From Opitutus sp. GAS368 (GTDB lineage Bacteria > Verrucomicrobiota > Verrucomicrobiia > Opitutales > Opitutaceae): DNA of 47,205 nt. The stretch lies in assembly GCA_945906965.1 (NCBI GenBank), contig CAMDRP010000013.1, positions 1-47,205 on the forward strand, read 5' to 3'. This document shows positions 20,199 to 21,284 of the stretch, piece by piece (the first letter of the stretch is position 1; each line of letters opens with the position of its first letter). The notes below the pieces were generated by a model. It worked only from the letters and a program-made list of their open reading frames with translations. It made no database searches and was not told the DNA's origin. The translations under genes were made by a program, and so were the position numbers.

Positions 20199-21284
20199 AT
20201 GCAAAAAACCTTTCAAGTCGGCGCCAAAACCTTCGTCCTAGACGAGGCCAAGGCGGAAGCGGCATTTGCCGCCAAGCGGGTGATCAATGGTCGCCAGACC
20301 ATGTGCTTCAACCTACTGCCATTGAAATATCAGTGGGCCTATGACCTTTATCGCAAGATGAAGGCTAATCACTGGGAGCCCGAGGACATCCCTATGGGCA
20401 AGGACATTGAGCAATGGCGCGATGAAAAAGCCCTTTCCGAGGTCGAGCGCTGGATCATCCGCATGGGCATTGGTTATTTCTCCGCCGCTGAAGGCATCGT
20501 CGGTGACAACATCCAGCACGTCGTGCGCGAACTCGTCACCGCCCCCGAGTTGAAACTCGTCCTCGGTCGTCACGCCCACGAGGAAAACATTCACGCCGAT
20601 TCGCTCCTCTACATGATCGCTTCGCTCGGGATCAACCCGCACGAGTGCGAAGCGATGTTCGAAGACGTCCCCACGATTGTCCGCAAAAACGAGTTCGTTA
20701 CGCGCGTCTCGCGCTCGCTTCGGCGTGATCTCGATATGACTCAGATCGAGAACAAGAAGCTGCTCGCGAAAAACATCTTTGTCTTCGGCCAGTGCATGGA
20801 AGGCACGCAGTTTTATGGTCTCTTCGGCATGGTCCTCTCGCTGTACCGCCAAAACAAGTTCCCCGGCATCGGCCAGATGTTCCGCTACACGCTCCGCGAC
20901 GAGAGCAATCACATCGAAGTCTTCCGCAATCTGTTCATGGATCTCGTCGAGGAAAACCGCGAGATCTGGACCGCCGAGTTCAAAGAAGAGCTCCGCGACC
21001 TCATGCAGGAAGCCATCACGCTCGAGAAAGAATTCATTCGTGATTGCCTGCCCGTGAACGCCGTCGGCCTCCGCCTCGAAGATTTCCTCACTTACATCGA
21101 TTATATTGCCGACCGCCGCCTCGAAGGCGTGGGCCTCGCGCTCCTCAACCCGAGCGCCAAGAACCCGCTCCCTTGGCTTGCCGAGATGATGGACATCAAG
21201 AAGGAGCAAAACTTCTTCGAGGGCCGCGTCACGGAATACCAGAAGGCTTCCTCTCTCAACGTAGCTGCCGACGAAGAGCTCTGA
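20199..21284 (+). CDS. nrdB: class I ribonucleotide reductase beta subunit, radical Tyr replaced by Leu
   Basis: A 361-residue R2 protein that holds the dimetal centre generating the oxidant for NrdA. Carboxylate and histidine ligands are all present: E98, E129, H132, E201, E235 and H238. At the fourth position after H132, where standard enzymes have the radical tyrosine and Chlamydia has phenylalanine, this protein has L136 (ENIHADSLLY). Overall it resembles the chlamydial class Ic type (FYGLFGMVLSLYRQNK, YIADRRLEGVG). So a Mn/Fe or Mn/Mn metal-based oxidant is likely instead of a tyrosyl radical. Y347 in the C-terminal tail would relay the radical to NrdA. nrdA follows after 180 bases. No maturation flavoprotein (NrdI) is in the window. 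Confidence 0.93.
   Translation: MQKTFQVGAKTFVLDEAKAEAAFAAKRVINGRQTMCFNLLPLKYQWAYDLYRKMKANHWEPEDIPMGKDIEQWRDEKALSEVERWIIRMGIGYFSAAEGIVGDNIQHVVRELVTAPELKLVLGRHAHEENIHADSLLYMIASLGINPHECEAMFEDVPTIVRKNEFVTRVSRSLRRDLDMTQIENKKLLAKNIFVFGQCMEGTQFYGLFGMVLSLYRQNKFPGIGQMFRYTLRDESNHIEVFRNLFMDLVEENREIWTAEFKEELRDLMQEAITLEKEFIRDCLPVNAVGLRLEDFLTYIDYIADRRLEGVGLALLNPSAKNPLPWLAEMMDIKKEQNFFEGRVTEYQKASSLNVAADEEL

Follow-up and report, generated by a model that had tools for sequence, protein, structure and literature searches.

A leucine-type class I ribonucleotide reductase subunit, widespread in Verrucomicrobiota, that probably keeps its oxidant on metals

The window, by which we mean the whole 47,205-nucleotide stretch of DNA analysed here, carries adjacent forward-strand genes for both subunits of a class I ribonucleotide reductase (RNR). 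The first, nrdB (20199–21284, +), is an intact frame with an ATG start and encodes a 361-residue radical-generating subunit (R2) of a leucine type, as judged from Pfam, NCBIfam, phmmer and AlphaFold. An intact nrdA (21465–25940, +; Pfam, NCBIfam) lies 3′ of it and encodes the catalytic subunit (R1) as an intein-bearing precursor of 1,491 residues. NrdB matches Pfam Ribonuc_red_sm (E 6e-67) and scores above the cut-off of NCBIfam NF005550 (ribonucleotide-diphosphate reductase subunit beta). Neighbouring genes at 12874–19464 encode a PhoH-like ATPase with a PIN domain, a cobalamin adenosyltransferase, a peptide deformylase, a sulfatase and an ECF-type sigma factor, and have no obvious tie to RNR.

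Aligning NrdB with the Chlamydia trachomatis R2 (PDB code 1SYY) using phmmer gives 41% identity and a motif region free of gaps (NrdB 'AHEENIHADSLLYM' against C. trachomatis 'AFEEAVHTHTFLYI'). All six metal ligands are in place, as the original prediction had stated: E98 (20490–20492, +; Glu where class Ia/Ib has Asp), the bridging E129 (20583–20585, +), H132 (20592–20594, +), E201 (20799–20801, +), and E235 and H238 (20901–20912, +), which pair with E89, E120, H123, E193, E227 and H230 of C. trachomatis. Their spacing was expected to equal or approach that of the chlamydial class Ic protein and does so (31, 3, 69, 34 and 3 residues versus 31, 3, 70, 34 and 3), the third interval being the single difference. 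The radical-tyrosine position is L136 (codon CTC; 20604–20606, +), assigned from the alignment, the codon and homologues and facing C. trachomatis F127; the reading of Leu at this site is thus upheld, and with this residue a tyrosyl radical at position 136 is impossible. Radical-transfer residues align equally well, comprising the invariant W59 (20373–20375, +; equivalent of the radical-transfer Trp), D234, Y230 (20886–20888, +; C. trachomatis Y222) and the C-terminal Y347 (21237–21239, +; E. coli Y356), a path kept across the Leu-type clade described below.

These features place NrdB among class I R2 proteins: it has six ligands in the order E/D, EXXH, E, EXXH, a ferritin-like fold, and a neighbouring class I NrdA with a Tyr dyad and catalytic cysteines. 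Like class Ic it lacks the radical tyrosine, having Leu/Glu where the class Ic type member pairs Phe with Glu (PMC8463856). L136 with E98 departs from the Tyr and Asp of class Ia/Ib, the genome has no NrdI activase of the kind that defines class Ib, and class Id would pair Glu with Tyr, here Leu. A class Ia, Ib or Id identity was rejected on these grounds (L136 with E98, no NrdI). R2-like ligand-binding oxidases (R2lox) likewise combine four Glu ligands with the absence of a radical Tyr; their marks are the lack of a C-terminal Tyr, an Ala at the F197 position and no RNR partner, whereas NrdB retains Y347 and its tail, has F205 where R2lox has Ala, adjoins NrdA and falls far under the cut-off of the NCBIfam R2lox models, which makes an oxidase rather than an RNR subunit highly improbable.

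An AlphaFold model built with 34 close homologues reached a pLDDT of 56, rising to a mean of 84.9 once viral class Ic-like R2s were added. The best matches of the model are C. trachomatis NrdB structures, led by 4M1I (Z 36.7, 1.3 Å over 276 residues), the Mn(II)Fe(II) form of that protein; scores are lower against class Ia from E. coli (Z about 31) and class Id from L. blandensis (Z about 28.9). The best PDB matches by sequence carry Phe or Tyr at the radical site, and the sequence and structure comparisons turned up no Leu-type entry, leaving the Leu-type R2 without a close solved relative in the PDB and agreeing with the earlier remark that such proteins are little characterised.

NrdA retains C499, C713 and C1108 and the Tyr dyad Y1411–Y1412 (numbered on the intein-bearing precursor). 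Profile comparison equates C713 (23601–23603, +) with the finger-loop catalytic cysteine C439 of E. coli. Immediately C-terminal to it, and absent from the original prediction, is a 380-residue LAGLIDADG-type intein (NrdA residues 714–1093; 23604–24743, +). The intein is sporadic and mobile, because a similar one occurs in 4 other loci among the 290 NrdA frames fetched. Elsewhere (G072:C23:105403-108147) a 1,491-residue NrdA frame has its barrel match interrupted at about profile position 70, apparently by an intein inserted elsewhere in the protein. Several ATP-cone-like domains had been proposed for NrdA, and three are indeed seen; only one, at residues 158–244 (21936–22196, +), is intact by Pfam (PF03477, E 1e-15). 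The N-terminal (21600–21899, +) and third (22248–22580, +) domains are degenerate, aligning to the intact cone in hhalign at 88.6% and at 79.5% over 34 columns, and Pfam returned no match for the NrdA fragments flanking the intact cone. Three cone-like domains, one of them intact, is therefore a fair statement of what the sequence suggests.

Upstream of nrdB lies a palindrome, ACCACA-N6-TGTGGT (20072–20089, +), with a half-conserved repeat 32 bp further upstream (20040–20057, +); motif analysis predicts these to be NrdR boxes 2 and 1. The centres of paired NrdR boxes are separated by three helical turns (PMC12051234), and since the 32-bp spacing fits this distance, the pair at 20040–20089 is likely an NrdR operator. 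An NrdR gene is present in the genome. TTGTGG pairs at 32-bp spacing recur in 55 of 155 upstream regions of Leu-type genes and in 0 shuffled ones, and an NrdR-box-like repeat pair with this spacing is kept upstream of nrdB in many Opitutaceae.

The leucine is shared by relatives of NrdB. At the seven positions from E98 to H238, 110 of 111 relatives' loci read EEHLEEH, the remaining one carrying E201Q, and Leu holds the radical site in all 158 relatives of the clade. Codon 136 is CTC, so a substitution relative to TTC/CTT-type codons is not masked by ambiguity. The genome is a metagenome assembly, in which one might suspect an artefact of sequencing or assembly, or else a gene in decay; against this stand the identical letters of those 110 independent loci and, for decay, a dN/dS well below 1. 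L136 is not an assembly error, because every close homologue shows the same letters, and we give error or decay practically no credence.

Residue 136 also varies together with the first ligand. Among 258 distinct R2s from Verrucomicrobiota, Planctomycetota, Pseudomonadota, haloarchaeal and other plasmids, and phages, positions 98 and 136 are Glu and Leu in 158, Glu and Phe in 26 and Asp and Tyr in 73, these being counts of related and hence non-independent sequences. The sole exception to the pairing is a degenerate paralogue, with none among intact proteins, and the tree requires at least three changes of state at the two positions. R2s from viral contigs show Glu with Val (55), Ile (2) or Phe (7), and Asp with Tyr (14); the Val and Ile forms are marine proteins near chlamydial class Ic (contigs L309–L388). 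Scanning viral contigs with P0001 or the Leu-type alignment found no relative.

The genome, at 96.8% estimated completeness, contains one R2 and one R1 barrel. A family-by-family search of it found no NrdI, no class III NrdD and no further R1 or R2. That this is the genome's only RNR is a point absent from the original prediction; with one R2, one R1 and no NrdD, gene content indicates that this freshwater Opitutaceae bacterium must build all its deoxynucleotides with a Leu-type RNR. Single RNRs are common in the family: an R1 barrel was detected in 44 of 60 Opitutaceae genomes of at least 95% completeness, and just one barrel in 37 of those 44.

We consider it probable, from the sequence and by analogy with Chlamydia, that NrdB is the working radical generator of the cell's only RNR and holds its oxidant on the metals, most likely as Mn(IV)/Fe(III). 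Leu is redox-inert and the ligands and transfer path are complete, so the metals would remain as the oxidant; storage in the dimetal centre, as first proposed, is still the best and most likely reading. The centre would be oxidised by O2 or a reduced oxygen species and would persist as a one-electron oxidant, for which the Mn(IV)/Fe(III) state of C. trachomatis is the likeliest form. Substrate binding would then draw an electron from C713 of NrdA through the tyrosines to the metals, generating a thiyl radical, and the electron would return after turnover. Overall activity would be set by ATP and dATP at the ATP-cone of NrdA, and the nrdBA operon would be repressed by NrdR.

For the metal pair, Mn(IV)/Fe(III) is most likely by analogy with Chlamydia, with Mn/Mn as second choice. 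At around 65 positions the Leu clade has a fixed residue seldom seen in the Phe or Tyr types, and several of these adjoin ligands (H125, H127, N130, D134 and Q204), so the choice of metals does not transfer from Chlamydia with certainty. This departure of the second shell from chlamydial class Ic, together with a genome that, as for class Id, has no NrdI, and with the metal-stored oxidant and all-Glu carboxylates common to class Id (PMC8463856), would suit a dimanganese Mn(III)/Mn(IV) oxidant loaded by superoxide. Class Id, however, keeps Tyr with Glu and carries ATP-cones on NrdB and none on NrdA (PMC8463856), whereas here Leu goes with Glu and the cone is on NrdA, and the model matches class Ic (Z 36.7) well above class Id from L. 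blandensis (Z 28.9); we regard dimanganese as rather unlikely. A stable radical on another tyrosine near the metals could be imagined at Y93, a residue invariant among Leu types and replaced by Phe in Phe types. Y93 sits five residues ahead of E98, not one turn from EXXH, and the remaining conserved tyrosines also occur in class Ic proteins of the Phe type, where no stable tyrosyl radical forms; a tyrosyl oxidant of this kind is very unlikely next to the metal-stored one that we favour.

In an R2 tree computed with the two trait columns (98 and 136) masked, Leu-type proteins form one clade (95/95) outside that of Phe-type class Ic, and Pseudomonas-type Tyr R2s nest inside the latter. Forcing Leu and Phe types together is not rejected by the AU test (p 0.25 when the nested Tyr rows are included and 0.22 when they are left out), so one or two origins are both possible. 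The kinship with Chlamydia drawn in the original prediction was accordingly over-read: the Leu clade is not nested in Phe-type class Ic, and the tree neither supports a common origin nor rejects one. We treat as tentative, and leaning towards improbable, the idea that the metal-oxidant RNR of Verrucomicrobiota arose independently of chlamydial class Ic, with separate loss of Tyr and gain of Glu. If true, it would imply an own second shell, possibly an own metal pair, and a further subclass of class I rather than a member of class Ic.

Outside the window, one family of the same class has a second nrdB-like gene upstream of its Leu-type nrdB. Metal-dead tandem copies (L158:7467-8510, L391–L404) read QERLE(V/I/T)R, where intact Leu types have EEHLEEH, in G490 and in 12 genomes of one genus, and GQQLEAR in 2 genomes of another; most ligands are lost and the acidic C-terminal tail is kept. 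These copies are under selection, because dN is small against a saturated dS. A different form, in two genomes of one genus (G045 and G076; loci L112:8447-9529 and L113:5896-6993), keeps its ligands intact and has Y230N and a lost NFFE stretch, with a dN/dS of about 0.11. Yeast has Rnr4 beside Rnr2, an arrangement that the tandem genes resemble. It is possible that the metal-dead and Leu-type proteins together make a bacterial β/β′ R2, in which case the pair would be the bacterial counterpart of yeast Rnr2/Rnr4.

Leu-type R2s occur throughout Opitutales and extend to several further orders of the phylum Verrucomicrobiota. Of 150 genomes from the family, 116 have an R2 match, nearly all of the Leu type, and the others have no R2; a few (G099, G005 and G046) have a Tyr-type R2 besides or instead of it. 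This distribution indicates that the Leu R2 is vertically retained across the phylum. Leu-type matches titled Rubrivivax (L064) and Planctomycetaceae (L085) come from short contigs that may have been binned wrongly; those in G612 and G642, genomes from the phylum of the L085 record, may be real.

Were the oxidant indeed metal-stored, a manganese-dependent, tyrosine-free enzyme would serve DNA synthesis in an entire phylum whose members are common in soil, in lakes and in gut-related settings. The clade offers a natural test of whether the shift from tyrosyl radical to metal oxidant happened once or more often, and of a causal link between the Glu ligand and loss of the tyrosine.

Leu, Ile and Val at the radical site of class Ic-like R2s are already recorded in surveys (Hogbom 2010, as cited in PMC3824934; PMC12918982; PMC9531940), one of which counts Leu among class Ic reference residues (PMC12918982). 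Since these proteins, like NrdB, combine a non-Tyr residue with a Glu ligand, NrdB belongs to a known kind. These reports (PMC3824934, PMC12918982, PMC9531940) describe no phylum-wide Leu clade in Verrucomicrobiota, and we found no in vitro study of any Leu-type R2 in the open-licence literature. What is new is the phylum-wide, vertically kept Leu clade, outside the chlamydial Phe clade and with no solved member, together with the conserved metal-dead tandem NrdB found in one of its side branches.

Among known systems, NCBIfam assigns both window proteins to the Pseudomonas-type class Ia families (NrdB, PRK07209; NrdA, PRK07207), and P. aeruginosa NrdA (PDB code 5IM3) is closest to the window NrdA. 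Pseudomonas-type NrdB carries Asp and Tyr, unlike the Glu and Leu found here, and its NrdA has two cone-like domains against three. Class Id R2s (F. johnsoniae, L. blandensis; Mn2) share with NrdB the Glu first ligand and a metal-stored oxidant, the latter predicted here, and differ in having Tyr, in reversed ATP-cone placement and in lower structural similarity. The C. trachomatis class Ic R2 (Mn(IV)/Fe(III); PDB codes 1SYY, 4D8F, 4M1I) has near-identical ligand spacing with Glu as first ligand, the same fold, the same radical-transfer residues and, like NrdB, no radical Tyr. The two proteins are set apart by Phe versus Leu, 41% identity, the roughly 65 clade-fixed differences, separate clades and differing C-terminal tails.
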